Positions 6,396 to 54,368 of a DNA stretch of 64,000 nucleotides are shown here, one piece after another. The DNA lies in the IMG/VR virus record IMGVR_UViG_3300025087_000038, positions 1 through 64,000 of that record. One strand, 5' to 3'. Both the position numbers and the translations under genes were made by a program. The notes under the pieces were generated by a model. The model was given only the letters and a program-made list of their open reading frames with translations, did no database searches and was not told the DNA's origin. This stretch comes from a virus. Position 1 is the stretch's first letter, and each line of letters opens with the position of its first letter.

Positions 6396-9107
6396 TTGTC
6401 AAATAGAGTAATAGTAACAGACAACATAAACGAAGAGTATAGAAAAGCTACCTCAAAAGCTGTAACCTTAGAAGGATTACCAAAAGAAATACAGGATAGA
6501 ATGAAACGTAGAGCAACTTCTGGCGTATCAGTTGACAGAGTCGCTGACCAATATTATAACCCGTTTTTACAGACTACTGAAATAGAAGTTCCAAAAGACC
6601 GAAAGGAACGAAATCGTTGGTACCGATATTTCTTTTTAAATGAACCATTGGTACATTCGGCGTTGACTCTTCATACAATGTTTCCGTTATCTTCTTTTAG
6701 AGTCTCACATGAAGATAAAGAGATAGAAGATGAATTTAACGCAATGATAGAAGACATAAGGCTATTTGATTTTATTTTAGAGTTGGGGTTAGAGTATTGG
6801 ATAACTGGCGAGGCGTTTCCATTCGGATTTTTTGACGACCCTGATGATCCTAAGATGTGGACTGACTTTATTTTACTTCATCCAAACTTTGTAGAAGTAG
6901 AAGGTGACCCGTGGGTAAGAGGAAAAAGAAAGAAGCATATTTGGTTAACTCCTACCGATAGCTTAAAAAAATTAGTAGAAGGCGGGCCGAACGATCCCAA
7001 AACAGGGGAACTCTATAAAAACCTTCCTCCAGACATAATAGAAGGAATAAAAGTCGGAAAAATAGAATTAGGGGATGTTCAAATAAGTCACATAAAACGC
7101 CCTGGAATATATTTTAATACAAGAGGAACAAGTATAATAGATTGCATTTTAAAGGCTTTAATGTATAGAGATAAACTAAGAAGTGCCCAGTATTCCATAG
7201 CTGATCGCCACATAAGTCCGTGTCACGACGAACAAACAGAGTGCTTAACTAAAGTAGGATGGAAGAGATATGAGGAACTTACTTTAGAAGATGATATAGC
7301 TACTTTTAATATATCTAATGGATTACTAGAGTATCAAAAACCTGAGGAGATATATATTTTCCCCCATAAGGGAGATCTTGTACATTTTAAGAAAAATAGA
7401 ATAGATGTAATGGTTACACCTAATCATAGGATGTTAGTAAAAGAGCTAAATTATGATAAGGTTAAATCTAAAGAAGCAAAGAAAGTTAAAAAAAATATTC
7501 CTGGGATATACACTTATAGTGATTGGAAAGTAGTAGAAGCTTCTAAGGTAAAAAAGAGTAGTATCTTTAGGTGCGTTATTAACAATTTTATTGGGGAAGA
7601 TGTAAAAGAAACTATAGTAGTTAATGATGTTTCAATTCCAATAGACATCTATTTAGAGTTTGTAGGTTACTACTTAAGCGAGGGCACTATTTGGCAATAT
7701 AAGAAAGAAGGCAAAGATGTGTCTATTTCTCAAATGAAACATTCAAGGCACTATCAACAAATGAAGATAGCTCTTGAAAAATTTCCACTTAAGTTTACTG
7801 AGAAACTTACTAATCGCGGATGCGCTATATGGAGTAGAACAGATACGGTTTTATGCGAGCACATAATAGAAAATTACGGGCAAGGGAGTTTCAATAAAAA
7901 AATTCCCGTTTGGGTTAAAAATTTATCTCCAAGGTTACTAAAGATACTTATAGATGCAATGGTTAGGGGCGATGGTAGTGTTAATACTATTGCTACTTGG
8001 AATAACAAAACTTACAGTAATCGATATATAAACTATTATACTGTCTCTAAACAACTAGCGGATGATGTTCAAGAAATTGTCTTTAAGTGCGGGTATGCAG
8101 TGGCTTTAAAGAAAAGTAAAAGTAGAACTGCCCCCGTTAACTGGGCGGAAATATATACAGTTTATTGGTCAGAAACTACAAAAAATAGCAAATTTCCAAG
8201 ATTAACTGCAGGAAAAGATTGTATTCAGAAAGTTTCTCATACTGGATATGTATGGTGTGTAAAGGTCCCAAACAAATTTTTTGTAACAAGGCGAAATGGA
8301 AAAATAGGGATAAATCACAATACGGAGTTTTACTTTATAGGAGAACCTGGAGATCCAGCTGACGAAGACGAATTAGAGAAATTCCAGAATGCTTTAGTAG
8401 CATCTTGGACACAACCTAATCGAGCGATAATTTGGCATCATGCCGTAAAAGTTCAATGGGAAGGGGCTGCCGGACGCATATTACCACTACAACCGGAATT
8501 TGACATGATAGATAACCAAATTTTAATTGGATTAATGGTATCAAAAGGTGTTATCTTTGGGGAGGGGCCGACGTTCGCTAATGCATCAGTTGCACTGGAC
8601 ATTCTAATTCAACGATATTTAAGTTTTAGAATGCAGATAGAAAAATGGATAGAAAATTGCGTATTTGCTCCAATATGTAAGATACATGGACTTTACAAAC
8701 CTACTCAAGCAGAAATAAAACATAGAATAAGAATTAAGGGTAAAGACAAACCTTTATGGATACCCCAAGTAAAATGGGACAAAGAAAACCTAAGAGATAA
8801 CATGCAAAAATTAGAGTTTATGTCTAGACTAGCGGAGAAAGAAATTGTTCCTTGGAAAATGGTAACAAACTTACTAGATTTAGATTGGGAAACAATTAAG
8901 AAAGGAATGGTTGAACAAAGAAAAGAAAGGGGTAAAATCGGATTACCCTCCCCGGTTGTTCCTACAGGGGCAGTACCTACAGGACTTCCAACTCCACCTA
9001 CAGGTAGTCCTGTTGTAGAAATAACTCCTGCCGAAGGACCTTTAGAAGGGGGCGGGCCAATACCTTCAGAATCTCATCAACTTCCAGAAGTACCAACGGG
9101 CGGATAA
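6396..9107 (+). CDS. Portal protein precursor interrupted by an intein
   Basis: 903 aa including a 367-aa intein at residues 276-642, leaving a mature portal of about 536 aa. The start is TTG, chosen because AAGGAGGAAGAG lies just upstream and no other start fits. The extein has features of large phage portals: an N-terminal segment near a WYRYFFLNEP motif, the clip-proximal ADRHISP segment joined after splicing to TEFYFIGEPGD, and a long C-terminal helical region ending in a Pro/Gly-rich tail. The portal forms the dodecameric ring for DNA entry and tail joining. The position upstream of the protease and capsid genes agrees with standard head-gene order. Confidence 0.8.
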   Translation: MSNRVIVTDNINEEYRKATSKAVTLEGLPKEIQDRMKRRATSGVSVDRVADQYYNPFLQTTEIEVPKDRKERNRWYRYFFLNEPLVHSALTLHTMFPLSSFRVSHEDKEIEDEFNAMIEDIRLFDFILELGLEYWITGEAFPFGFFDDPDDPKMWTDFILLHPNFVEVEGDPWVRGKRKKHIWLTPTDSLKKLVEGGPNDPKTGELYKNLPPDIIEGIKVGKIELGDVQISHIKRPGIYFNTRGTSIIDCILKALMYRDKLRSAQYSIADRHISPCHDEQTECLTKVGWKRYEELTLEDDIATFNISNGLLEYQKPEEIYIFPHKGDLVHFKKNRIDVMVTPNHRMLVKELNYDKVKSKEAKKVKKNIPGIYTYSDWKVVEASKVKKSSIFRCVINNFIGEDVKETIVVNDVSIPIDIYLEFVGYYLSEGTIWQYKKEGKDVSISQMKHSRHYQQMKIALEKFPLKFTEKLTNRGCAIWSRTDTVLCEHIIENYGQGSFNKKIPVWVKNLSPRLLKILIDAMVRGDGSVNTIATWNNKTYSNRYINYYTVSKQLADDVQEIVFKCGYAVALKKSKSRTAPVNWAEIYTVYWSETTKNSKFPRLTAGKDCIQKVSHTGYVWCVKVPNKFFVTRRNGKIGINHNTEFYFIGEPGDPADEDELEKFQNALVASWTQPNRAIIWHHAVKVQWEGAAGRILPLQPEFDMIDNQILIGLMVSKGVIFGEGPTFANASVALDILIQRYLSFRMQIEKWIENCVFAPICKIHGLYKPTQAEIKHRIRIKGKDKPLWIPQVKWDKENLRDNMQKLEFMSRLAEKEIVPWKMVTNLLDLDWETIKKGMVEQRKERGKIGLPSPVVPTGAVPTGLPTPPTGSPVVEITPAEGPLEGGGPIPSESHQLPEVPTGG
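7221..8321 (+). other. Intein in portal protein (class 1, LAGLIDADG)
   Basis: Cys1 starts the intein after ...HISP (the CHDEQTECLT block). Block B is TPNHRM. The two LAGLIDADG blocks are GYYLSEGTIW and DAMVRGDGSV. The C-terminal block ends GINHN with Thr as the +1 residue. These blocks identify a full-length class 1 intein with a dodecapeptide homing endonuclease domain. No frameshift or stop is present and the residues needed for splicing are intact. Confidence 0.9.
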
Positions 9108-9537: not shown

Positions 9538-9825
9538 ATGCGTTATACGTGTACAAGTTGTAATGTGGATGTAGAGTTAGGAAAAGATAATGAGAAAAGA
9601 TGCCCTAGATGCGGTTATAAAAGTTATATGAAAGAAGCAAAAGAAAAAGTAGTGGCAAAAGTAATATCTAAAAAAGATATAGTGTATACAGCAGTCCAAT
9701 GTGAGAACTGCGCTGTTGTCTGGGATAAAAGTTTATCAGAAAAGTGCCCAGTATGCGGAAAGATAGGCGGTAAATTTATAAATAAAAAAGAAGCATTGAA
9801 AAAAGAGGAGTTAGTAACAGTATAA
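9538..9825 (+). CDS. Double zinc-ribbon protein, 95 aa
   Basis: Four CxxC pairs form two rubredoxin-like ribbons: CTSC/CPRC at the N-terminus and CENC/CPVC in the second half, linked by a Lys/Glu-rich helix. The stop overlaps the protease ATG (TAATG), so the two are coupled. The role is unknown; it may bind nucleic acid or act in head assembly. Confidence 0.6.
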   Translation: MRYTCTSCNVDVELGKDNEKRCPRCGYKSYMKEAKEKVVAKVISKKDIVYTAVQCENCAVVWDKSLSEKCPVCGKIGGKFINKKEALKKEELVTV

Positions 9826-12800
9826 TGTTTTACCGAACAGCACAACTGAAAATTAAGGATAAAGATTTATATTTATGTGGTAAAGACGAAACTAAGGTTT
9901 GTAACTGTTGCGGAACCCAGTCTTGTAGTTTTAGACAAGCCGCAAAACGGTTAATAGCTGTTGACCCAAATTTCCTTTATGTTATTGTAAGCGGATTACA
10001 CGGCGACTCTCCTAATGAGAACGGAGATTATTTTGAATGGGATAAAAATCATTTCGATTGGGAGAAAGAAGTATTCGGGTATGAAGGAGAGCTTTTAAAC
10101 AAACGAAACGGCGCATACGTTTATGAGACTTGGCGGGGAAAACCAAATTTGACCAACCACGATGAAAAGTCAGTCGTAGGCCATATAGAAGATGTGTTTC
10201 ATATACTCGAAGAAAAAAGTATAGATAAACTATTAGCCGTTAATCGTAGAACACAACCTTTATTAGTAGGGGATATAGAGAAAGGACTTATTAATGAAGT
10301 TAGTATGGGATGCCTAGTAGCATCGTCAATCTGTAGTAAGTGCAAACATATTGCGCATGATGAGCAAGAATGGTGCTTTTTACCCGGCACTAAAGTTTTA
10401 ATGGCGGATTATACCTTAAAAAATATTGAAACTGTTTGTGAAGGGGAGCATGTTATTACACATAAAGGAAATAAGAAAAAGGTACTTAAACCAATGTCTC
10501 GTAGTTATGAAGGCGAGATACTAGTAATTACTAGTGTAGGAGATAGTGGTAAGTATCCTTTAAGATTGACTCCTAACCATGAAATTTTTACATTACAAAG
10601 TAATGGAAGTATTGGAAGTGGGACGGTAGGATTTATTCTGGCGAAAGAAATACAAATAAATAATGAATTACTTGTTCCAGTAGTAAGGGAACAAAAAACC
10701 AATTTAGAAGTAACAGAAGAGGAATCGAGGTTATTGGGTTATTATGTTAGTGAGGGAAGTATTGGAAATAAAAATTATAAGACTACTAGACAGCTATCTT
10801 TTTCTTTTAATAAATCTGAAGCGGCATACGTAACTGAAGTCGCTAGTTTATGTACTAAGTTATTTAATCGGCAAATTTGCGTATACGAAAACCCAAAATC
10901 ATCTGGAGTAGAAATACGTACTAGTGTTCCTTTGAATGTCGCTTCTAAGCTCCAATATATAGGAGGAGAATACGCAAAACAGAAACAACTTGTAGGCGAA
11001 TTTGTAGAGCAACCCCTTGATATTGTTAAAGCATTTTTAGATACCTACAATAATGGGGATGGTTGGAAAAATGCGAAGGGGTTTAGTTTTGAAACAGCTT
11101 CAGAACAATTAGCTTATCAGTTAGTAATATTAGGAAGACGCTTTGGAGGTAGTGTATATTGGAATAAATTACCTAATACACATTCTCCTACTAATCCTGT
11201 TAAAGACCTTACCATTTATAGGGTAAATATAAAACCCCTTATTAATGTGGTACGATATTTATCTTACGATGGAATTGGTTATTTTAAGAGATTAGTAAGA
11301 GATATCAAATCTGAAAGGTATTCCGGATTAGTATACAACTTGGAAGTAGAGGATGACAATTCTTATATTGCAAATGATGTAGCAGTTCATAATTGTGATC
11401 ACTTAAAGTATCATAAGGGAAGGTTAGATGATGAAGGAAGCAAAATTTACGAAATAAATAAGGGTGTAGTAGGACAAGAATGTTCTTGGATAACAATGGG
11501 TCAGGCCGCTGATCCAAAAGCAACAAAGAAAAAGATAGTAGCAGAAAAGGAGGAAGAGATGAGCACATTTAAAATAAACCCAATTGCTGGTAAACGGTCC
11601 GTAGAGGCAGGAGTCTCAAGTGAAACAAGTGTTCCTGCTGGGGGTATAAAAAACGCAATTGCTTATGAATCGGATATGAGCAGGTTTACAGGTATGAAAA
11701 AAGAAAAAGGGATGGCTGGAGTATCCCCTGAAATGCAAACTAAATTAGCTTTATTAGCAAAAATCCCTGTAGATAAATTAATTGGATTAGTAGATGATAA
11801 AGATGTAAAAGAGATTTTAGCTCAAACAATGACATCTTCTACAGTAGCAGAAGAAAAGGAAACCATAGCAACTGAAATAGAAAAATTAGAAAAAGAGATT
11901 GTAAAACCCGTAGTTGCAGAAAGTTTAGGGAATGTCAAGGAAGAAATAGCTAAAAGGAAAGAAATTTTAGCGGGTTTATACAAAAAAGAAGAAGCAATGA
12001 AAGGAACAAATGCTGTTAGACGTATATCAGCAGAAATTATTAGATTAGAAGATGAAGTAACAGAATTAGAAAAGCAAGAACCAGCAGTTGCTACTAAGGG
12101 GAGAACCATGAATTCCTTTAGAGATGTAGATGTAAGTAAAATAGATGAATTTAAGAGGTTGTATGATTGGGATCAGTTTGATGATTTATGGCAAAAAGCT
12201 GTTGAAAAAGCGTTAACTATTATTGATGAAAAAGATTACAAAGTTTTTCAAGAAGTATTACAAGATATTCCTACTTCAGCTGCTGAAGATATTACTACCC
12301 CCAATGCTTTAGCACGCTATCTTTTTAACTATGTAGAACGATATAAGAGGACACCTCTCCTCGAGGAGGCAAGCATGGATATAAATGCATTAGCAAAAAT
12401 GATAAAAGAAACAGTAAGGGCTGAAATGAAATCCTTAAAGGCCCAATTTGGTGAAGAGAAAGATAAGGATAAAGATTTAACAGAATTGCCGGAGCCTGCT
12501 TTAGAAAAGCCGAAGGTAGATAAAAAGGAAATTCCTAAAGAGACTAAAGACGAACCTTCAGATGAATCTTTAGAATTAGAAGACAAAAAAGAGGAAAAAC
12601 CAGCAACTCCTAAGAAAGAGTTACAGAAAGATTTAGAAGAGGGGGCTAATATTGAATCCGGTAAGGCTAAAGAAATAGTAACTGACATAGAAAAAATAGT
12701 AAAGGACGAAGTAAAGAAAACTAAACTTTCTAAACCAGAAGAGAAGGAAGTAGTAGAGATGGAACCTAAAGAAGAAACTGAAGAGCCTTTAATGGATGAA

Positions 12801-13976
12801 GATTTGGACTTAAACTTCATAGAAGGAAAAAGAAAGTCAGAGTCAAAGTGGATAGTAAGAGCAAAAAAGAAACCAGTATTTTCAGTTAACCTAAAACAAG
12901 CGTTTGATACAGATAGTTGGAGTAAAAACTGGAAGTTCTTTAGTTCAAAAGAGTATGGAAAAGAGTTGCGGGAAGCAATAAAGGAGAAAGGTATTAAGCG
13001 AACAATAGTTGAAGAGTTTCCAGCAGGGGTAACTAGATTAAGTCAAGTTGAACTTCCCCCAGAAACGCCAACTACTCAACCAGTTGGACAGGCCCCTCAA
13101 GCTGTTTTACCGCCACAGTCTCAGCAACAGATTTTGGAAGGGCCAAAAGCAAAAGGGTCATTCGTGAAATTCTTAACAAATATGACAGCTCCGTTGATTG
13201 CATTAGATACTCCAGTATTTGATGTAGATAGTATTACGACAGAGTTAACCTCAACTTTTGGTGATGAAGCAGCAACTAATCAGTTTAAAGGTGAACTAGA
13301 AGCAAAGGTTCAAAGCTTAAAAGAACCAAAAGAGGGAGTGCCGGCTCAACCAATAACTACTGCAAAGAGTATTAAAGCGCTTAAGAAAGCGTTATTTGAA
13401 GAGTTCCAAAAGGTAAAGCCAACTATAAGTGAAGATGAAGTATGGTTAATTTATAGTGCTGGAGACTCTGAATTTAAGAGAGAACTTTTAAAAGGTGGAG
13501 AAAGAATAACGGCTCTAAAGGGGGAACTCAATAAAGAAATTAGTGCTCATAAGAGAACTCAAGCATCTTTAGAAAACCTTTTAGAGGAGAGAAGCCTTAG
13601 ATTTAAAGCTCGTAAAGCAGTTGAGTTAGTAGATAGAGAAATTATTGTCGGGTTAGTTGATACAAAAGAAACTTTAATGGCAAAAGGCGAAAAAGATGAA
13701 AGAGTAGCAACAAAGACAGCAAAAGAAATCTACGAGCATGAAGTAGATGAGTTAGTAGCTATGGACGATAAAACGTTTAATAGTTTTACTAAGAAAGTAG
13801 AAGCAATGTTAAAAGAAACAAAAATGACAAAAAGAGCTTCAATAGGAAAAGTAATAGGGTCATTAGTAGATGCAACAACTGATGATGAACCTAGAGCAAG
13901 TATAGAAGGAAGCAAAAGTACAACTCTTGAGACCGTATGGTCAAGGCCACCTATAGTAAATGAGAATGAGAAATAA
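9825..13976 (+). CDS. Prohead protease with scaffold-like C-terminus, intein-containing
   Basis: 1383 aa including a 340-aa intein (residues 184-523), so about 1043 aa mature. The N-terminal domain has the phage prohead protease signature: a His in TNHDEKSVVG (near residue 111) and a Ser in EVSMGC, followed by a Cys/His cluster (CSKCKH...WCDH) that looks like a zinc site. After about residue 560 the protein is long, Lys/Glu-rich and helical or coiled coil, typical of scaffold or core protein. A fused protease-scaffold is therefore likely. The N-terminus itself carries RTAQ|L, similar to the KKEAQ motifs of the tagged small proteins. Confidence 0.75.
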   Translation: MFYRTAQLKIKDKDLYLCGKDETKVCNCCGTQSCSFRQAAKRLIAVDPNFLYVIVSGLHGDSPNENGDYFEWDKNHFDWEKEVFGYEGELLNKRNGAYVYETWRGKPNLTNHDEKSVVGHIEDVFHILEEKSIDKLLAVNRRTQPLLVGDIEKGLINEVSMGCLVASSICSKCKHIAHDEQEWCFLPGTKVLMADYTLKNIETVCEGEHVITHKGNKKKVLKPMSRSYEGEILVITSVGDSGKYPLRLTPNHEIFTLQSNGSIGSGTVGFILAKEIQINNELLVPVVREQKTNLEVTEEESRLLGYYVSEGSIGNKNYKTTRQLSFSFNKSEAAYVTEVASLCTKLFNRQICVYENPKSSGVEIRTSVPLNVASKLQYIGGEYAKQKQLVGEFVEQPLDIVKAFLDTYNNGDGWKNAKGFSFETASEQLAYQLVILGRRFGGSVYWNKLPNTHSPTNPVKDLTIYRVNIKPLINVVRYLSYDGIGYFKRLVRDIKSERYSGLVYNLEVEDDNSYIANDVAVHNCDHLKYHKGRLDDEGSKIYEINKGVVGQECSWITMGQAADPKATKKKIVAEKEEEMSTFKINPIAGKRSVEAGVSSETSVPAGGIKNAIAYESDMSRFTGMKKEKGMAGVSPEMQTKLALLAKIPVDKLIGLVDDKDVKEILAQTMTSSTVAEEKETIATEIEKLEKEIVKPVVAESLGNVKEEIAKRKEILAGLYKKEEAMKGTNAVRRISAEIIRLEDEVTELEKQEPAVATKGRTMNSFRDVDVSKIDEFKRLYDWDQFDDLWQKAVEKALTIIDEKDYKVFQEVLQDIPTSAAEDITTPNALARYLFNYVERYKRTPLLEEASMDINALAKMIKETVRAEMKSLKAQFGEEKDKDKDLTELPEPALEKPKVDKKEIPKETKDEPSDESLELEDKKEEKPATPKKELQKDLEEGANIESGKAKEIVTDIEKIVKDEVKKTKLSKPEEKEVVEMEPKEETEEPLMDEDLDLNFIEGKRKSESKWIVRAKKKPVFSVNLKQAFDTDSWSKNWKFFSSKEYGKELREAIKEKGIKRTIVEEFPAGVTRLSQVELPPETPTTQPVGQAPQAVLPPQSQQQILEGPKAKGSFVKFLTNMTAPLIALDTPVFDVDSITTELTSTFGDEAATNQFKGELEAKVQSLKEPKEGVPAQPITTAKSIKALKKALFEEFQKVKPTISEDEVWLIYSAGDSEFKRELLKGGERITALKGELNKEISAHKRTQASLENLLEERSLRFKARKAVELVDREIIVGLVDTKETLMAKGEKDERVATKTAKEIYEHEVDELVAMDDKTFNSFTKKVEAMLKETKMTKRASIGKVIGSLVDATTDDEPRASIEGSKSTTLETVWSRPPIVNENEK
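10374..11393 (+). other. Intein in prohead protease (class 1, LAGLIDADG)
   Basis: It begins at Cys in WCFLPGTKVLM. Block B is LTPNHEIF. LAGLIDADG blocks are GYYVSEGSIG and LDTYNNGDGW. Block F is VYNLEVEDDNSYIA, and the end is AVHN followed by Cys as +1. All class 1 splicing residues are present. It interrupts the Cys/His cluster directly before the Cys of the WCDH segment, about 25-30 residues after the catalytic Ser. Confidence 0.9.
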
Positions 13977-15176: not shown

Positions 15177-18100
15177 ATGGAAAGAACCGAAGCACAGAAA
15201 GAGTACGCAGTGGCAGCTGCACTTCGAACTGCGTCGGGTCGGAATGAAATTGGTCAAACTATGTTGGAGCCTTTTAAGGAGGGCAGAGATTACGTAGGAA
15301 TGGGTCGTAAGTGTTTCTACGTGGATAAACTCCCAACAGCAGCACCGATTCGTACAGAGTCGCACTTAAGTAGTAGTAAGTGAAAAATTTGGCTATATGC
15401 TGGAAACTCTTTAGAACCTTAAATACAAAACAGTAACTTGGAAAAGTAGACTGAAAGTGAAAATTTTAAGGATTAGACAATCAGCAGGGAAGTTTAAGAG
15501 AACCTTAAACCCCTCAGAGACTACACGCCAAACTAAAAGTTATGGATGAAATAAAACTAAAAAATACATTGCAAGAATACCATTTATTTAAAGGGGTATT
15601 TGATAGCCTCTTTAAACGATTACTGGCAAACTGGGATAGATTGGAACTAAATTGGATACGAAACGAGATAACCATCCTTTCTAGACTGTTTGCAGAATCC
15701 AAAAAATGTTTAGAGGGTATAGATATTGAAACCACTCTGGAACAGAAAAAGTTAATCAATTTAGGCACTTTAAAAAAGAAATGGGAAAAACAATTTAGAC
15801 ACCCTTGGGAAAAATTTTTAGAAAAATGGCGCCCAAAACTTTTTAGATGATATAGTCCGAGCATGTATAGCGATATACAGAAGCAAACAGAAATGATTTG
15901 CTCTTAACTAAAAAAGTTAAAGTAACAGAACTGGTGGTATGACAAGGACCCGCAGTTTAGTGCAGTAGTGATTAGCCAAAGAGGTAGTGTTCCATACGAG
16001 CGGATTGAAGGAACCAGGGTGGAACTCGAACCGATTCCAATAGCGGTTTGGGTGAAGATCCCGGTTTTAGAGATAGCAGTTCGTAGGTTCAATATTCTTG
16101 ACCGTGAAAAATCTCACTTAATGTTTGCGGTCAAAAAACTTAACCATATGCTGGAACAACCGAGTATTCAACTTAGCCAAAGAGCAAAATTAAGTTGATG
16201 CGGTCAATCAGCAGGAAAGGATGGCAAAAATGGCAAAAAGATCGTTCAAATTTGAGGCTTGGACTCCTGAATTAGCTTACGTGATAGGAGCTTATTTAGG
16301 CGATGGGTGGTTGGATTTAAACCAAAGATATGGATTTGGAATAGGATCTATTGATAAAGAATTCATTGAAAAGGTTAAATCATGTTTAACTACTTTCATC
16401 AAAGGCAATTTAAATGAGATTAAGCAGTCAGAATGGAATAAGCAACAGTCTTTTAAAAATAACACAGTTTGGAAGTTGACCTTTACTTGTAAAGACTTTG
16501 TTATTTGGTTAAAGGATTCTTGTAGTGGCAAAGAGCATGTTCCTATAAATTTTCCTAAAGATAATATACTAATTACTACAGAGTTAATCAATGGTTTTAT
16601 GGATGCAGAGGGGTACATTAGTATGAATAGAAATAGGTATGGAAAGTTACGTTTTCAAATAGGAGTGTGTTGTTGTGATTCTTGCATATTTGGTATTATT
16701 GACTTATGTAGTCAATTAAATCTGTTACCTTGGAAGTGTTACAAACATATTACCAAGAGTGGTAGAGTATCGAATGACTTTAGATTTCACGTTAATCAAA
16801 TTGCCAAAAGTCCTATAAATTTTTCAATAGAAAGAAAGCAGAAACGGTTAGTAGTGCTTAGGAAGGCCATCTTCCTCAACGACTTTACGTTAAGTGATAA
16901 AGATTTAGAATCTTTATCAATGATAAAGTCTGGTCTTATTGGCGACGATAAGAGACGATTAGAAATAAGTCGTCCATTATATGCTGGGCAAGGATATAAG
17001 TTTACGTCTTCTACAGGTAAAGAAGCAGTAAAAATTCAGAAAGAAAAAGGGTTGCTTAAATCTTTTAATGACTTTGATAGATGTAATGCAGCTCAACGTA
17101 GAATGGAACTTGGACAAATAAAGAAGAGTAAATTACTTCCTAGCTAAATATAGTGTAACAAGTAACAGAACAGGTGAGAGCGCGCGCGGAAATGGCTGAG
17201 GCAGAAGATACAAAGATTCTGTCAGCTATTAGCACCGCAACGACTACAGCAACCGGTCGGAATACTACGCAAACAAGTACTGGTGGTTTAACAAGAAATT
17301 GTTTAGGCGGCTTGTTTGCAGAAATTGAACAACATGACGCTCCAGTGGCTAACATCATAATGCATCCGATTAACTATAAAGACATTCGCGCATGGGCAAA
17401 GGATAACCAAAAAATTTGTCCTTTTAAAACTTAGCTATATGCAAAGACGCCCTAACAAGGGTAATTTGCAGGGAAGACTCACACAAAATGGATAAAAGAA
17501 TAATAGCAAATAGAAAAAGAATAAAGAAAACTTACGAGGAACTATATGGTATAGAAAGAGCTTTACAGATTAAAGCAAAACAATCAAAAGCTCAGAAAGG
17601 TGTTCCCGATGGGCCACAGTCAGCAGAAACTATAAGGAAAAAGCGTTTAATTATGAAGAAATCTGCTAAAAGAGGTTCTGAACACTATAGATACAATTAC
17701 CATTATACAACAGATGAAAAGAAACAGCTTTCTCAAAGATCTACATTTGGATTGTTGAAGTACTACTCAAAAAATTCGGGTAGTCGAATAACGGGTGGGC
17801 ATTGGAGTAAGGATGGAAGACGGGTAGACCTTGACAACCAATATTTCAGAAGTACTTGGGAAGCTAACGTAGCTAGACTGTTAAACTTTTTAAAAGTCTT
17901 TTGGATTTATGAACCTGGAAGGTTTTCTTTATACGATGAGAATGACGATTTAATTTGCACATACAAACCAGATTTCTTTTTACCAGGGTGTAAGGTATAC
18001 CTTGAAGTAACGGGCCGAACTTTTGGTAACAAGTTAAGAAAACTAGACTTGTTTAGTAAAAAGTATAATTTGGTTGTTATTGATCAAGGAATGTATGTTT

Positions 18101-19890
18101 ACTTAAAAGAATGGATAAGTAATGTTATTCCCTTTTGGGAGAACCCTCAGAGACTATACGCTAAGCATTTAGAGATGAATGATGACATAGTCCAAACTGC
18201 ATGTATAGATAAAGATGCAGACCTAAACAGAAATGATTTAGGCGCTACTTAAACTAGTAGTTATGTAAGTAATAGATTGGAATTTGACCCCGTTAATAAC
18301 ATAGCGGCGCTAAATTAGAAATGATTTAGTGGAAAAGTTGACTATATCGGTGGAACTCCTAGCAATAGGACAATACCGAGGAAAGATTTTAAAGGTAAAA
18401 CTTTAAAAAATCCGTAGAGACTGTACGTCAACCTCCTTTGAACTTAAAGGAGATGATACAGGCCGAGCTGTTTGGTAACAAACAGAGTTCAACAGAAATG
18501 GTTGAACCCTTAACTATAAAAAGTTAAGAGTAACAAAACTGTACAAAACGCGAAATGATAAAGACTGGTTACATCGGAGATATTTGGAATTCACAACTGC
18601 GTATAACAAAGAAAGCAACATCCGGTACTGTGTATGCTTTGGCTGACCCTGAGTTCATGGGTGTAATATCCGTTAGGATCGATTAAAAATGAAAATGTTA
18701 ATAGAGAATATTGGAAAAATCATTTTCAGAAAATAGTCGCTTTTATCAGTAATGATAATTGCAAAACCAACTATATCGGTGAAACTCCTGAAAAGGACAA
18801 TACCGAGGGAAGTCTTAGTGACCCCGTAGAGACTGCACGTTGGATTCCTATTAATAGGAATATGATACAGTCCAATCTGAATAGTAATATTCAGAGTTTA
18901 CCAGAAATGAGTAAACCCCAACTAAATTAGTTGGAGTAATAAAAATGTTAGACCAAATGGATGCGCCAGATCAAGAGAACTTATGTCTTGGTTGGATATT
19001 CTATGAGTAAACAAACTTGCTCATATAAAACCTAGCTATATCGGTGGAACTCCTGCGAAGCAGGACAATACCGAGGGAAGAGAGGATATGGACACAAATA
19101 GAAAAGCATTGGCTTATGTAATTGGTGTATATTTGGGTGATGGTTGGATAACTAAGCAAACTATTAATGGTAATGATTACTACACTTTTGGGGTGGCTTC
19201 AATAGACAAAGAGTTTATTGAAAGAGCAAAATCTCAAATGGAAGTGATATTATCTAGATGATCCATACCCGAAGTAAAACACTGGTTAAATAACATGTAT
19301 GCTTTTCAAATAAGTGGTTCACCCTTTTTTAAAGAATTAAAAGAAGAAACTTTTAATAAATTAGTAATTCCTAATTGGATCTGTGAATTAGATCCGTTTT
19401 CAGAGGAACTAACAGAATTCTTTAGAGGGGCTATTGATAGTGAAGGGTGTATTACACGAGGAAATTGTGCAATGGATTTTGGGTTTATAATGAATGTTAA
19501 AGGAGATTGGTTTTTACCATTTGTATCTCTTTTAAAAAACAGGTTCAAAACCCTACCATTAACAAAAAGAAAAGATGGTATTTGGAATATAGAAAAACCG
19601 CTTTATTCCTTTTTACAGGCGCATATACCATTGACTATTAATAGAAAAAGGGACCGAATAAAAGAGTATCTATATAAGGTAAGTCATAGACCTCTCCCCG
19701 TAGAGACTATACGCTGGGCATCTTTAGAATATGGTAAAGATGATGATATAGTCCGAGCTGCATAGTAATATGCAGAGGATATTAGAAATAGATATCCCCC
19801 TAGAAATAGGAGCAACAAACTGACGTAGGAATTGCCGTAATCATAGCCCAAGGCACAGCAAAAGCTACTATTACTGGTAGTATAGCATAG
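15177..19890 (+). CDS. Major capsid protein, seven exons
   Basis: HK97-type major capsid protein assembled from seven exons: 15177-15349, 15934-16105, 17174-17404, 18280-18293, 18542-18683, 18948-19008 and 19823-19890. They total 861 nt, one open frame of 286 aa. Joined junctions read sensibly against this capsid family: LPTAAPM|WYDKDPQF, NILDR|VRARAEM, RAWAKD|EFDPV|TKREMIKTG, VRID|LDQMDAPD and WIFYE|YVGIAV. The EFDPVTKRE, GYIGDIW and LGWIFYE segments are typical of capsid proteins from long-tailed phages. ATG at 15177 is chosen because GGAGGTGAAATGT precedes it. Junctions rest on P1 pairing and a shared 3' end; I2 is the least certain to the base (an alternative joins LDR-EQVRAR). Confidence 0.88.
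15350..15933 (+). ncRNA. Group I intron 1 of major capsid gene
   Basis: 584 nt. P1 forms from exon CCGAT and intron GAGTCG (about 15346-15362) with a U-G pair at 15349. Core elements: P near 15391 (CTATATGCTGG), Q near 15478 (CAATCAGCAGGGAAG), R at 15511-15529 (CAGAGACTACACG) and S at 15848 (GATATAGTCCGAGC). R GACTA pairs with S TAGTC as P7. The intron ends in AGTAACAGAACTG. An ORF of 102 aa lies between R and S, that is in the P8 loop. Confidence 0.85.
15542..15850 (+). CDS. Intron 1 ORF, 102 aa, family unknown
   Basis: An ORF inside the P8 loop of intron 1, running into the S element. The protein is basic, Trp/Leu/Lys rich and helical. It has no LAGLIDADG, GIY-YIG or HNH motif that I can see. 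It may be a maturase-like or degenerate endonuclease protein. No strong ribosome-binding site precedes the ATG. Confidence 0.45.
   Translation: MDEIKLKNTLQEYHLFKGVFDSLFKRLLANWDRLELNWIRNEITILSRLFAESKKCLEGIDIETTLEQKKLINLGTLKKKWEKQFRHPWEKFLEKWRPKLFR
16106..17173 (+). ncRNA. Group I intron 2 of major capsid gene
   Basis: About 1068 nt. P1 is strong: exon TTGACCGT pairs with intron GCGGTCAA at 16126-16133, with the U-G at 16105. P element near 16144 (CATATGCTGGAAC) and Q near 16203 (TCAATCAGCAGGAAAGG) match intron 1. R could not be placed confidently, and S may be the AATATAGTG near 17148. The end is AGTAACAGAACAG. A LAGLIDADG ORF fills the loop after Q. Confidence 0.75.
16221..17147 (+). CDS. 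LAGLIDADG homing endonuclease in intron 2
   Basis: 308 aa with two dodecapeptide motifs: VIGAYLGDGWLD (near residue 20) and INGFMDAEGYIS (near residue 125). This marks a monomeric double-motif LAGLIDADG endonuclease, which would cut intronless capsid alleles and promote intron spread. The ATG follows AGGAAAGG, which is also part of the intron Q element. The acidic catalytic residue of each motif (D and E) is present, so the enzyme may be active. Confidence 0.85.
   Translation: MAKMAKRSFKFEAWTPELAYVIGAYLGDGWLDLNQRYGFGIGSIDKEFIEKVKSCLTTFIKGNLNEIKQSEWNKQQSFKNNTVWKLTFTCKDFVIWLKDSCSGKEHVPINFPKDNILITTELINGFMDAEGYISMNRNRYGKLRFQIGVCCCDSCIFGIIDLCSQLNLLPWKCYKHITKSGRVSNDFRFHVNQIAKSPINFSIERKQKRLVVLRKAIFLNDFTLSDKDLESLSMIKSGLIGDDKRRLEISRPLYAGQGYKFTSSTGKEAVKIQKEKGLLKSFNDFDRCNAAQRRMELGQIKKSKLLPS
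17405..18279 (+). ncRNA. Group I intron 3 of major capsid gene
   Basis: 875 nt. P1: exon AAAGGAT pairs with intron GTCCTTT near 17419-17426, U-G at 17404. P near 17433 (GCTATATGCAAAG), Q near 17461 (GTAATTTGCAGGGAAG), R at 18144-18162 (CCCTCAGAGACTATACGCT), S at 18184-18193 (GACATAGTCC). The end is AGTAATAGATTG. The ORF begins after Q and runs through R and S. Confidence 0.85.
17488..18252 (+). CDS. PD-(D/E)XK/Vsr-like homing endonuclease in intron 3
   Basis: 254 aa. The N-terminus has a basic helical region similar to NUMOD DNA-binding modules. The C-terminal half has a nuclease-like core: STWEANVARLLN, then YKPDFFLPG and a YLEVTG strand, then LVVIDQ. The conserved E, PD and E are present, although the Lys usual after E is Thr. 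The last 35 codons are encoded by the intron core (R and S), so protein sequence and ribozyme structure constrain each other. Confidence 0.65.
   Translation: MDKRIIANRKRIKKTYEELYGIERALQIKAKQSKAQKGVPDGPQSAETIRKKRLIMKKSAKRGSEHYRYNYHYTTDEKKQLSQRSTFGLLKYYSKNSGSRITGGHWSKDGRRVDLDNQYFRSTWEANVARLLNFLKVFWIYEPGRFSLYDENDDLICTYKPDFFLPGCKVYLEVTGRTFGNKLRKLDLFSKKYNLVVIDQGMYVYLKEWISNVIPFWENPQRLYAKHLEMNDDIVQTACIDKDADLNRNDLGAT
18280..18293 (+). other. 14-nt micro-exon (exon 4) of major capsid gene
   Basis: Only GAATTTGACCCCGT lies between introns 3 and 4. It encodes EFDP and two bases of the next Val codon. Joining KD|EFDPV|TKRE restores the motif expected in this capsid family. The exon must act as 3' exon for intron 3 and supply the P1 strand (CCGT with intron GCGG) for intron 4. 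Confidence 0.8.
18294..18541 (+). ncRNA. Group I intron 4 of major capsid gene (no ORF)
   Basis: 248 nt and ORF-free. P at about 18341-18360 (CTATATCGGTGGAACTCC), Q at 18369-18385 (GACAATACCGAGGAAAG), R at 18411-18429 (CCGTAGAGACTGTACGTC), S at 18454-18463 (GATACAGGCC). R CTGTA pairs with S TACAG as P7. The end is AGTAACAAAACTG. A compact minimal ribozyme. Confidence 0.88.
18684..18947 (+). ncRNA. Group I intron 5 of major capsid gene (no ORF)
   Basis: 264 nt and ORF-free. The P1 candidate is exon CGAT with intron GTCG near 18736, across a long loop. P near 18769 (CTATATCGGTGAAACTCC), Q near 18795 (GACAATACCGAGGGAAG), R near 18821 (CCCCGTAGAGACTGCACG), S at 18864 (GATACAGTCC). The end is AGTAATAAAAATG. 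Very similar core to intron 4. Confidence 0.85.
19009..19822 (+). ncRNA. Group I intron 6 of major capsid gene
   Basis: 814 nt. P1: exon TATGAGT pairs with intron GCTCATA (about 19019-19025), U-G at 19008. P near 19033 (GCTATATCGGTGGAACTCC), Q near 19064 (GACAATACCGAGGGAAG), R near 19695 (CCCGTAGAGACTATACGCT), S near 19745 (GATATAGTCCGAGC). The end is AGCAACAAACTG. It carries a broken LAGLIDADG gene. Confidence 0.87.
19088..19765 (+). pseudogene. LAGLIDADG homing endonuclease in intron 6, broken by TGA
   Basis: The frame opens at ATG 19088 with the first dodecapeptide (VIGVYLGDGWIT). It hits an in-frame TGA at 19259-19261, then continues in the same frame with the second motif (GAIDSEGCIT in the segment near 19430) to the stop at 19765. 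TGA is a normal stop elsewhere in this genome (several ATGA overlaps), so this is a nonsense mutation. The C-terminal part overlaps intron elements R and S. Confidence 0.8.
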
Positions 19891-48490: not shown

Positions 48491-49069
48491 ATGAATCAGG
48501 AGACTAAAAGGATAACGGAGATAGTAGAAGAAATAAGAGGCGGTAATCAAAGTAATTGTCAAGAATTAGTAAACCTTTTAAAGAAGCGCGTAATAGTTAA
48601 GGTAAGAAACGTAAATTTATATGAAGCCGAACAAGATGAGATAATAGACGATTGTGTAGCAACGACTTTGTGTTATGCAATTAACACTTGGAATAAGGGG
48701 CGCGCAGCAAGTTTTTTAACCTACTTCTATTTACGTTGTAGGGCAACAATTTGGAACAAATGTGTGGTTCTACATAACAAACATCAATGCGTTCGTCTAA
48801 ATTCAATTAGTATTGAAGCAATGGAAGACTGGAAAGAGCCTGGAGAAGAAGATAATGTAGTTGAATATAACGACATAGTAAAAGAAATTTCAAACTCTTT
48901 GTCTAAAGAAGCAAGGAGCGTATTTAAAGGGATAGTTCAAGGAAATAGATTAACAACCGTATACCCAAAACAAGTCATTAATGAAATCAGAGACAATCCA
49001 GTAGTTCAAGAAACAGCTTCACACTATACCCGATGTAAAAACGGTAGGGTAGAAAGGGTATGGCAATGA
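48491..49069 (+). CDS. Sigma-factor-like protein, 192 aa
   Basis: An N-terminal region resembles sigma-70 region 2: a helical segment with a DEIIDDCVATTLCYAIN motif, then INTWNKGRAASFLTYFYLRCRATIWN, like the conserved F-x-T-Y helix with basic residues used for -10 recognition. The C-terminal part could be a region 4-like helix-turn-helix but is weak. It may recognise the repeated TTGTAGTATAAT element (inference). AAAGGAGTAAAAG site. The stop overlaps the helicase start. Confidence 0.55.
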   Translation: MNQETKRITEIVEEIRGGNQSNCQELVNLLKKRVIVKVRNVNLYEAEQDEIIDDCVATTLCYAINTWNKGRAASFLTYFYLRCRATIWNKCVVLHNKHQCVRLNSISIEAMEDWKEPGEEDNVVEYNDIVKEISNSLSKEARSVFKGIVQGNRLTTVYPKQVINEIRDNPVVQETASHYTRCKNGRVERVWQ

Positions 49070-52032
49070 AACTTTGTTATGATGGTTTCTTCTATTGTAT
49101 TTCTACTTACGAAGAAAAAGATATCTCAAAGAGCGCTGGTTTTACTTGGCACCCAAAAAAACGTAGGTGGGAAACTAAAGAAGTAGACTTCGCTAACAGG
49201 TTAGTTAATTACGCGGATGAAGCAACCAAAATAGTATTAGAAAAAGCAATGCAGGAAAGAACAAAAAGTATAGAATCTTCCCGGCTAACAAACTTAAACG
49301 TAGACTTACCAGCCCCTCAAGGGCTGGAGTATTTACCATTTCAAAAAGCTGGTATAGCTTATGCTCTACAAAGAAATGGAACGCTAATAGCCGACGAAAT
49401 GGGGTTAGGTAAGGCACAACCCTTGGATGCTAAGGTATTAACCCCAAATGGTTGGATGCTAATGAGAAATATTAAAATAGGTGATGAAATAATAAATTCC
49501 TTAGGGGACGTCTCAAAAGTTACAGATATTTACCCGCAAGGAAGAAAAAAAGTATTTAAAGTAGAATTTACAGATGGTTCAAGTACTGAGTGTACAGAAG
49601 ATCATTTATGGAAAGTTATAACACCTCTTCGAAAACATGGTAAGTACAGTAGCCTAGTATTACCTTTATCTGAAATAAAAGATACTTTATACCTTAAGAG
49701 TCAAGGGAATTTAAAAATACCTAATTTGCGATATTTTATACCATTAGTAAAACCAGTGAATTTTTCGAAAAAAGATTTACTTATTGATCCTTATTTATTA
49801 GGAGTGTTATTGGGGGATGGGTCAATTAAATATACTACAGAGTTTTCCTCCGCCGATATCACAATTGTTAGCGAAATTACAAAACTTTGCAAAATAATTA
49901 ACTTACAAGTTAAACGTATTTCTAAATATGATTATAGAATAAGCGCTGGGAAGCCTACAAAACCAGGAAATAATCCCCTTTTAACGGCTTTAAAAAGTTT
50001 AGGATTATTTGGAAAGGGTAGCGATGATAAATTTATCCCTGAAACGTATTTGTTAGGAAGTTTAGAACAAAGAAAAAGCTTATTTCAAGGACTTATGGAT
50101 ACTGATGGTTATGTAAGTAAGAGTAGTACTTTACAATACGGTTCAAATTCTGAAAAATTAGTAGATGGAATTAAGTTTTTAGTGCAATCATTTGGTGGGG
50201 TTATTCGTAAGAGGTGCAGTATTTCGGCTTCAGGTAAAAACTTTTATACCTTAACAATTGCTTTACCTGATGAAGTAGATAAACCCTTCACTGTACCGAG
50301 AAAAGCTATTAGATATGTACCTCGGGTCAAGTATAAGCCTACTAGGGGCATTAAAAGTATTAGTGAATTTGGGGAAAAAGAGTGCCAGTGTATTGCTGTA
50401 GATTCCCTTGATAGACTATATATTACAGATGAGTTTGTATTAACTCATAATACTATTCAATCTATCGGGGTCATAAACGCCGATAAGGCTATCAGAAAAG
50501 TCTTAGTCATTTGTCCAGCGTCTTTAAAGATAAACTGGAAACGAGAATTAGAAAAATGGTTGTTGGAAAAAAGAACAATTGCAATTTTAAGGGATAAGTA
50601 TGTAGACGCTGACATAGTAATCTGCAATTATGATATGTTAAGAAAAATTGAAGAGCTAAAACGGGAATGGGATTTAGTGGTAGTGGATGAAGCACATTTT
50701 TGTAAGAATAAAAAGAGTCAGAGAACAATTGCGACTTTAGAGATATGCAAGAAGACAAGAAAAAAACTATTCTTAACAGGTACCCCAATAGTTAATAGAC
50801 CTATTGAACTTTATACCTTAATAAAAGCTTTAGGGTTTAATGGAAACTTATGGGGCCAACAAGGATATGCCTTTAGATATTGTAACGCTACTCAAACGGG
50901 TTACGGTTGGGATTTATCAGGTGCTTCAAACTTAGAGGAACTTCAAGACAAACTTAGAGCTCAGTTGATGATAAGAAGGTTGAAGAAAGATGTCTTGAAA
51001 GAGTTACCACCTAAACGTAGACAGATAATTGAATTTTCAGCTAATGGAGTAGCTGGTATTGTAAAAGAAGAACAAGATGCATGGAAACAACACCAAGATA
51101 ATTTAGATAGACTAAAAACTGACGTTGAACTTGCTAAGCTTGAAGGAGAAGAAAGTTATAAAACTGCTGTAGAAAAACTAAAAGAAGGTTCTCAAGTAGT
51201 ATTTGTAGAAATGGCGAAACTACGACATCAAACAGCTGTTGCAAAGATTCCTTACGTTGTAGATCACATTAAGGATTTACTTGAATCAATAGACAAGTTA
51301 GTTGTATTTGCGCATCACCATGATGTGGTAAACGCTATTGTTAATGCTTTTCCAACTATTACTGTTAAACTTACCGGAGAAGAAAAACTAGAAGAAAGAC
51401 AGCAAGCTGTTGATAGATTCCAAAATGACGAAAAAGTAAAATTATTTGTAGGGTCAATTTTAGCCTCTGGTTTGGGCATTACTTTAACTGCTGCTAGCAA
51501 CGTTGTATTTGTTGAACTTGATTGGGTTCCCGGAAATATGAGTCAGGCTGAAGATAGAACTCATAGAATAGGGCAAACAGAAAGTGTTTTAATTCAATAC
51601 CTAGTTTTAGAAGGTAGCCTTGATGCAACTATGGCAAAAACATTAATAAGAAAACAAGAAGTAATTGAAAAAGCTTTGGACAAAAAAGAACGGGAAGAAT
51701 TTGTGATTCCTGAAGTTAATGAGTCTGTTACTAAGCACTGGACTACAAAGGAAATAGAAAAAGAATTGGATAAATTTGAAGAAAAATTAACTGTGGTTAA
51801 AGAAGAATGGATTAGATGTGTTCATCAAGCACTTAAGCATATTGCTAGTGTTTGTGATGATGCTATAGCGTTAGATGGTTGTGGATTTAACAAAGTTGAT
51901 ACTCTGATAGGAAAAAGTTTAGCAGAATGTTTAAAACTTACCCCCAAACAAGCTTTACTTGGAAGAAAAATAATAGAAAAATATAAAAAGCAAATCAGTG
52001 AAGAGTTATACAACAAAATTTTTGAGGGATAG
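49060..52032 (+). CDS. SNF2-family (SMARCAL1-like) helicase, intein in Walker A
   Basis: 990 aa including a 346-aa intein (residues 119-464), so 644 aa mature. The N-terminal 70 residues resemble the HARP domain of annealing helicases. Helicase motifs: DEMGLGK|TIQ (Walker A, split by the intein between K118 and T465), VVDEAHFCKN, LTGTPIVNRP and, near the end, EDRTHRIGQTESV (motif VI). A phage UvsW-like role in replication-fork or recombination processing is likely. Start at 49060, or the ATGA at 49066. Confidence 0.8.
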   Translation: MAMKLCYDGFFYCISTYEEKDISKSAGFTWHPKKRRWETKEVDFANRLVNYADEATKIVLEKAMQERTKSIESSRLTNLNVDLPAPQGLEYLPFQKAGIAYALQRNGTLIADEMGLGKAQPLDAKVLTPNGWMLMRNIKIGDEIINSLGDVSKVTDIYPQGRKKVFKVEFTDGSSTECTEDHLWKVITPLRKHGKYSSLVLPLSEIKDTLYLKSQGNLKIPNLRYFIPLVKPVNFSKKDLLIDPYLLGVLLGDGSIKYTTEFSSADITIVSEITKLCKIINLQVKRISKYDYRISAGKPTKPGNNPLLTALKSLGLFGKGSDDKFIPETYLLGSLEQRKSLFQGLMDTDGYVSKSSTLQYGSNSEKLVDGIKFLVQSFGGVIRKRCSISASGKNFYTLTIALPDEVDKPFTVPRKAIRYVPRVKYKPTRGIKSISEFGEKECQCIAVDSLDRLYITDEFVLTHNTIQSIGVINADKAIRKVLVICPASLKINWKRELEKWLLEKRTIAILRDKYVDADIVICNYDMLRKIEELKREWDLVVVDEAHFCKNKKSQRTIATLEICKKTRKKLFLTGTPIVNRPIELYTLIKALGFNGNLWGQQGYAFRYCNATQTGYGWDLSGASNLEELQDKLRAQLMIRRLKKDVLKELPPKRRQIIEFSANGVAGIVKEEQDAWKQHQDNLDRLKTDVELAKLEGEESYKTAVEKLKEGSQVVFVEMAKLRHQTAVAKIPYVVDHIKDLLESIDKLVVFAHHHDVVNAIVNAFPTITVKLTGEEKLEERQQAVDRFQNDEKVKLFVGSILASGLGITLTAASNVVFVELDWVPGNMSQAEDRTHRIGQTESVLIQYLVLEGSLDATMAKTLIRKQEVIEKALDKKEREEFVIPEVNESVTKHWTTKEIEKELDKFEEKLTVVKEEWIRCVHQALKHIASVCDDAIALDGCGFNKVDTLIGKSLAECLKLTPKQALLGRKIIEKYKKQISEELYNKIFEG
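49414..50451 (+). other. Class 3 intein (Ala1, WCT triad) in SNF2 helicase
   Basis: The first residue is Ala (AQPLDAKVL), not Cys or Ser. Block B is TEDHLWK, with Trp at the B:12 position (intein residue 66). Near the end CIAVDSLDRLY supplies the block F Cys (residue 326), and VLTHN supplies Thr at G:5 (residue 344) before the terminal His-Asn, with Thr as +1. This Trp-Cys-Thr set is the signature of class 3 inteins. LAGLIDADG blocks GVLLGDGSIK and GLMDTDGYVS are present. Confidence 0.85.
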
Positions 52033-52037
52033 CCAGA

Positions 52038-53024
52038 ATGAAATTAGAACAAATAGGGTTTTATACCTTATCAGAAAATAGAGCAAAGACAACAAGTCCT
52101 AAATCGCCTATTATGCGCGCGGAACTATTGTTGACCGATAGGTGTAATTTGAAATGCCCTTACTGTAGAGGATTGAAATCGGAATTAAAGGGGGACATAT
52201 CTTTACCTTACGCTCAATATATTTTGCAACAGTGGGTTGATAATGGATTAACCAATGTAAGATTTAGCGGTGGGGAACCTACTTTGTATCCTTACTTGAA
52301 ACAGTTGATTAAAGGTTGTAAGCGCTGCGGTGTAAGGAGAATCGCACTATCTACTAATGGAACAGCTTCCTTAGACTTTTATAGGGAATTAATTGATTGC
52401 GGTGTTAATGATTTTTCCATTTCACTTGATAGTGGCTGTTGTTCTATTGGTAAGGTTATGTGTGGTGGTAGCACTATTGCTTGGAAGAAAGCAAGTACTG
52501 CAATTAAAGAACTTTCCAAGTTAACCTATGTAACAGTTGGAGCAGTCTTTAACGAATTGAATGTTAACTATGCTGTTGATACAATAAAGTGGATAGACGG
52601 TTTGAATCCTTTAGACATTAGAATAATTTCTTCTGCCCAGTATGATAAAGCTTTAGACAAGTTATCAACGCTTTCAGATTCACTGGTTAATAGGTATCCA
52701 ATACTGAAATACCGGTTGACCAACTTTAAGCAGAAGAGGAATGTTAGAGGATTACGAAAAGGAGATTGCAATAAATGTTACTTGGTATTAGATGATATTG
52801 CAGTAGCTGGAGGGCAGCACTTTCCTTGTATTATCTATCTTCGTGAGCAAGGACAAGCTATTGGAAAAATGAACGGCGATTTTAGGAACGAAAGGGTAGA
52901 ATGGTTTAAGAAACACAATACATTTGAAGATAAGATTTGCTTAAAGAATTGCCTTGACGTATGTATAGACTACAATAATAGGGTTAATTATTATGTTAAG
53001 AAGAATAGACGGAAGCTGTTTTGA
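52038..53024 (+). CDS. Radical SAM protein
   Basis: 328 aa. The radical SAM cluster motif CNLKCPYC binds the 4Fe-4S cluster, and GGEPTLYPYL is the conserved GGEP SAM-binding segment. A C-terminal CNKC...CLKNCLDVC region could bind further clusters, as in SPASM-type proteins. It does not look like QueE, which has a different cysteine spacing. Substrate unknown. Confidence 0.75.
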   Translation: MKLEQIGFYTLSENRAKTTSPKSPIMRAELLLTDRCNLKCPYCRGLKSELKGDISLPYAQYILQQWVDNGLTNVRFSGGEPTLYPYLKQLIKGCKRCGVRRIALSTNGTASLDFYRELIDCGVNDFSISLDSGCCSIGKVMCGGSTIAWKKASTAIKELSKLTYVTVGAVFNELNVNYAVDTIKWIDGLNPLDIRIISSAQYDKALDKLSTLSDSLVNRYPILKYRLTNFKQKRNVRGLRKGDCNKCYLVLDDIAVAGGQHFPCIIYLREQGQAIGKMNGDFRNERVEWFKKHNTFEDKICLKNCLDVCIDYNNRVNYYVKKNRRKLF

Positions 53025-54264: not shown

Positions 54265-54277
54265 TATTGAATATAAT

Positions 54278-54348
54278 TGCCCGGTAGTGTAGTGGTAACA
54301 CATCAGACTTTGGTTCTGGTATCTAAGGTTCGAACCCTTACTGGGCAG
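54278..54348 (+). tRNA. tRNA-Gln (anticodon TTG)
   Basis: 71 nt. Acceptor TGCCCGG pairs with CTGGGCA. D-arm GTGTAGTGGTAACAC. Anticodon arm CAGACTTTGGTTCTG gives anticodon TTG (Gln, CAA). T-arm AAGGTTCGAACCCTT. G73 discriminator. The 3' CCA is not encoded, which makes the phage CCA-adding enzyme (61358) relevant. It lies alone between small genes. Confidence 0.92.
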
Positions 54349-54368
54349 AGAACAGAAAAGGGGGAAAT

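Follow-up and report, generated by a model that had tools for sequence, protein, structure and literature searches.

Class 3 inteins are defined by Trp at B:12, Cys at F:4 and Thr at G:5, with no N-terminal nucleophile (PMC3196547), and this definition was applied here. The class 3 mini-intein DnaBi1 of Mycolicibacterium smegmatis (Msm) has a published structure (6bs8) and a published catalytic residue, Cys118 (PMC6195587). Class 3 inteins are also present in mycobacteriophages, and the Lys-Thr site of the terminase is a classic P-loop insertion (PMC5050341). The Deinococcus radiodurans Snf2 and mycobacteriophage Bethlehem DnaB inteins, the kind of examples on which the original prediction had drawn, are cited in PMC3196547 as published class 3 members; what they have in common with the element described below is the class, a likeness by description rather than by sequence.

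We analyzed a 64,000-nucleotide stretch of viral DNA (hereafter the window). With high confidence, we assign its positions 49414–50451 to a class 3 intein that is full-length, carries a LAGLIDADG homing endonuclease and interrupts the Walker A motif of a phage SNF2-family helicase between Lys and Thr. The window intein resembles DnaBi1 in its aligned WCT triad, its Ala1 and its P-loop site before the Ser/Thr that serves as residue +1, whereas DnaBi1 lacks an endonuclease, resides in DnaB rather than an SNF2 helicase, has Ser at +1 and carries the redox partner Cys48. The Mycobacterium chimaera DnaB1 intein (6rix/6riy) shares the class 3 splicing domain, but is a mini-intein without endonuclease in another host protein. 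Mycobacteriophage TerL1-a inteins (PMC5050341) likewise lie between the invariant Lys and Thr of a P-loop; their host is a terminase, and the likeness covers the insertion site, not the splicing class. The Bixzunavirus intein (Alice gp175), in a phage gene annotated as DNA helicase, combines a GSGK/S site (slash, insertion point) with Ala1, WCT and a LAGLIDADG endonuclease, but it is 34% identical, has Ser at +1 and lies far away on the intein tree. In orthologous SNF2 helicases, Erythrobacter phage vB_EliS-L02 and Brevundimonas phage Papperlapapp carry inteins at the same site that keep WCT, yet these are only 37–39% identical to the window intein and do not group with it.

Host gene, boundaries and anatomy

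The precursor is encoded by a single open reading frame of 990 codons at 49060–52032 (+). Its product matched the Pfam domains SNF2-rel_dom (PF00176, E 1e-30), spread over residues 104–660, and Helicase_C (PF00271, E 2e-11), with a LAGLIDADG_3 match between them, as well as the PHROG 62 DNA helicase (E 4e-101). In the PDB, the host helicase matched the Snf2/Rad54 helicase 1z63 (E 3e-32). The host thus has the SNF2 N-domain, helicase C-domain and Walker A GxGKT of an SNF2-family helicase. A radical SAM protein gene lies directly 3′ of it (52038–53024, +), and a tRNA-Gln (TTG) gene is found at 54277–54349 (+).

The intein comprises 346 residues, A1 to N346 (precursor residues 119–464; 49414–50451, +), and is present as one copy in the 127-kb virus record. 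This segment is stop-free and in frame; the other forward frames contain 31 and 44 stops, and the reverse complement contains many. When aligned, the Walker A loops of intein-free orthologues are uninterrupted (RM378 ADEMGTGK-TIQS, MN1 GDEMGLGK-TVQV, phiLo ADEMGLGK-TVQV). Because these three helicases read straight through, the insertion can be placed exactly between K118 and T465 of the precursor (ADEMGLGK/T), and intein relatives share the same ends. The N-extein (49060–49413, +) accordingly finishes with the Walker A stretch ...LIADEMGLGK (Lys118). The C-extein (50452–52032, +), delimited by the same alignment and by the 1z63 match, opens with the Walker A Thr as residue +1 (T-IQSIGVIN...) and holds the remaining helicase motifs. 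The original prediction of an insert at 49414–50451 starting with Ala and containing W66, C326 and T344 proved correct to the base on translation, and its placement between the Lys and Thr of GKT agrees with the intein-free orthologues.

The N-terminal splicing half, blocks A and B (49414–49623, +), aligned to residues 3–69 of 6bs8 and contains His64 (B:10) and Trp66 (B:12, codon 49609–49611). The C-terminal half, blocks F and G (50341–50451, +), aligned to C118/T137/H138/N139 of 6bs8 and contains Cys326 (F:4, codon 50389–50391) and Thr344 (G:5, codon 50443–50445), followed by His345 and Asn346 (all +). Between the two halves lies the homing endonuclease, whose profile matched PI-SceI (E 2e-21). 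Its block C holds LAGLIDADG motif 1, YLLGVLLGDG, with Asp135 (49792–49821, +; PI-SceI profile match), and its block E holds motif 2, LFQGLMDTDG, with Asp231 (50080–50109, +; Pfam LAGLIDADG_3, E 1e-7).

An AlphaFold2 model of the intein, based on 49 sequences, reached a pLDDT of 94.4 and a pTM of 0.92. Its best solved matches were PI-SceI (1ef0, E 3e-20) and other endonuclease-bearing inteins, followed by the class 3 mini-inteins 6riy (M. chimaera DnaB1) and 6bs8. The insert is thus confidently predicted to fold as a HINT splicing domain with a LAGLIDADG endonuclease. Together with this HINT fold, the block B His, the C-terminal His-Asn, a +1 nucleophile and an intact host frame identify the element as an intein. 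Each of the two LAGLIDADG motifs has its acidic residue (D135 and D231), and both positions are conserved among the 175 relatives that were fetched in full: 164 have D at position 135, 7 have E and 4 have N, and D231 is kept in 171. Since an acidic residue is retained in both motifs, the endonuclease is probably active.

The class 3 signature

The class was checked in the same 175 relatives. W66, C326 and T344 align with W67, C118 and T137 of Msm DnaBi1 (6bs8), and H64 aligns with H65. C326 thus falls on the catalytic cysteine of a known class 3 intein and is the F:4 residue. Trp66 stands at B:12, two residues after the block B His, Thr344 at G:5 is followed by His-Asn, and residue 1 is Ala, so Cys, Ser and Thr are all absent from position 1. 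H64, C326 and N346 are each present in all 175 complete relatives, W66 and H345 in 174 each and T344 in 171, although the W and T figures are biased because some of these relatives were fetched with motifs including W or THN (HLW or THN). We therefore counted separately 78 viral loci fetched by endonuclease motif alone, a type of scan that misses mini-inteins. In this set, W is present in 77, C in 78, T in 74, His (B:10) in 78 and Asn in 78. At the level of sequence, class 3 membership is well supported; the DnaBi1 alignment and the motif conservation in relatives bear out the class originally predicted.

Residue 1 varies widely: it is A in 132, P in 8, S in 8, G in 7 and E in 6 of the 175 relatives, with others in the remainder, and A in 44, P in 7 and G, S and E in 6 each of the 78 viral ones, which also include L, C, D, V, Q, F and M. 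This variation indicates that selection does not maintain a nucleophile at position 1, and that one is probably not required there. Three relatives (L094, L107 and L137) have Cys1 together with the full WCT triad; L107 and L137 lie within strongly supported clades having other first residues, and Cys1 may have been regained in these class 3 inteins. C324 and C326 form a CxC motif (50383–50391) that includes the catalytic Cys. C324 was considered as the F:4 residue and rejected, as it is Cys in only 39 of the 175 relatives versus 175 for C326. Two gp41-1 structure entries differ at the triad residues, with 6qaz lacking W and C; an engineered gp41-1_WCT is described in PMC7664689.

By analogy with characterized relatives, Cys326 would attack the Lys118-Ala1 bond to give the first branched intermediate, and the N-extein would then be transferred to Thr+1. 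Cyclization of Asn346 followed by an acyl shift would produce the native Lys-Thr bond and restore GLGKT. That Thr is less nucleophilic than Cys or Ser speaks against this scheme, but Thr occupies +1 in 66 of the 78 viral relatives.

Relatives and probable mobility

A tblastn search of phages with the intein matched 784 records, 737 of them with a query coverage of 80% or more (best E ~1e-61), so the intein is not a chance resemblance. Scanning viral contigs by motif gave at least 594 confirmed relatives, and a bacterial genome scan, built on an alignment of 8 closer rows, gave 292. The original prediction had called the class 3 mechanism rare; its signature is common in phages, with hundreds of relatives. 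The insertion falls at GK/T or GK/S in 133 of the 175 relatives; given this number, the literature's description of the P-loop site as classic and the class 3 inteins on record from mycobacteriophages, both the site and the class were already known. What the window adds is a clean class 3 intein that bears an endonuclease and lies in an AT-rich phage's SNF2 helicase. Twenty inteins (L140, L143, L145-L147, L149, L182 and others), from Acidobacteriota, Actinomycetota, Myxococcota and a Truepera MAG, form a strongly supported clade and are inserted at MRGR/TL...DEAQNT, a PhoH-like site outside the P-loop.

The intein and its host have different nearest relatives. The closest phage helicase is that of Rhodothermus phage RM378 (44% identity), and those of Thermus phages MN1 and phiLo are 39–40% identical; all three are intein-free. 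In the helicase tree, the 49060–52032 protein groups with RM378-type helicases, some of them without an intein. In the intein tree, the nearest neighbor is that of an Acidobacteria locus (L108), 50% identical, with modest support for the grouping (80), but the L108 helicase is only 27% identical to the window helicase and belongs to another, strongly separated SNF2 group. Conversely, one orthologue (L159) has a helicase 44% identical to that of the window and an intein only 38% identical. A single clade for the inteins of RM378-type helicases was rejected (p-AU 2e-95).

Because the two trees conflict, inteins at this Walker A site were probably gained more than once, and the same conflict suggests that the intein behaves as a mobile element. 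By cutting at the Walker A codons of alleles that lack the intein, its endonuclease would spread the element. The conflict offers a testable case of an intein moving, at one Walker A site, between helicases that are only distantly related. On a more speculative reading, less likely than not, class 3 inteins as a lineage would be specialized for P-loops: their endonuclease would track codon-level conservation of Walker A and they would hop between unrelated phage and bacterial P-loop NTPases, the window copy having reached its present host from another SNF2 family.

Alternative readings and other intervening sequences

The WCT triad could be merely inherited, with splicing by a class 1 or class 2 route that involves a direct attack of Thr+1 on the N-junction or a role for residue 1. 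A few relatives do combine Ser, Thr or Cys at position 1 with WCT, but the window intein begins with Ala, C326 is invariant, also in every relative that starts with Ala, Pro or Gly, and the aligned DnaBi1 uses its F:4 Cys (PMC6195587). We consider such a route very unlikely. Equally improbable is a decayed intein that no longer splices and leaves the helicase inactive, on the pattern of Arthrobacter Arth_1007: although a pseudogene class 3 intein is on record (PMC3196547), the catalytic residues are all intact here, as are both LAGLIDADG acids, the open frame and the downstream helicase sequence.

The intein might also be a conditional switch, with a signal such as oxidation of Cys326 delaying splicing so that the phage helicase becomes active only at the right time. 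Oxidation does inhibit the P-loop class 3 intein of M. smegmatis DnaB, by way of a disulfide between Cys118 and Cys48 (PMC6195587), and the window intein has further cysteines, C60, C159, C268 and C324, the last only two residues from C326. However, Val47 occupies the position of DnaBi1 Cys48, C324 is poorly conserved, the nearest helicases are intein-free and the pattern of occurrence is in keeping with a selfish homing element; the sequence examined gave no evidence tying the other cysteines to control. A conditional switch is therefore improbable, albeit less so than the two readings above. Because the P-loop is split, the unspliced precursor is likely to lack ATPase activity, a loss cited in PMC6195587 for a RadA P-loop intein. 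The on/off control originally predicted is thus reasonable in its weak form, a precursor inactive until spliced; as regulated splicing, on/off control of the helicase is unsupported, given Val47 and the selfish-element distribution.

Other intervening sequences occur in the window. An apparently class 1 intein of 367 residues with Cys1 (CHDEQTECLT...GINHN/T; 7221–8321, +) lies within an open reading frame at 6396–9107, a portal-protein gene (PHROG 16240). Another, also apparently class 1, of 340 residues (CFLPGTKV...DVAVHN/C; 10374–11393, +; Pfam Intein_splicing, E 1e-7), lies within a head maturation protease-like gene at 9825–13976 (PHROG 18299). Two group I introns (Rfam RF00028) were found at 18284–18485 and 18714–18894 (+). 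Counting the helicase intein, the total for the 64-kb window is three inteins and at least two introns. LAGLIDADG-like open reading frames at 16221–17147 and 19295–19765 lie near a major head protein fragment (17174–17434, PHROG 2522), and the capsid gene seems to be split by several introns.
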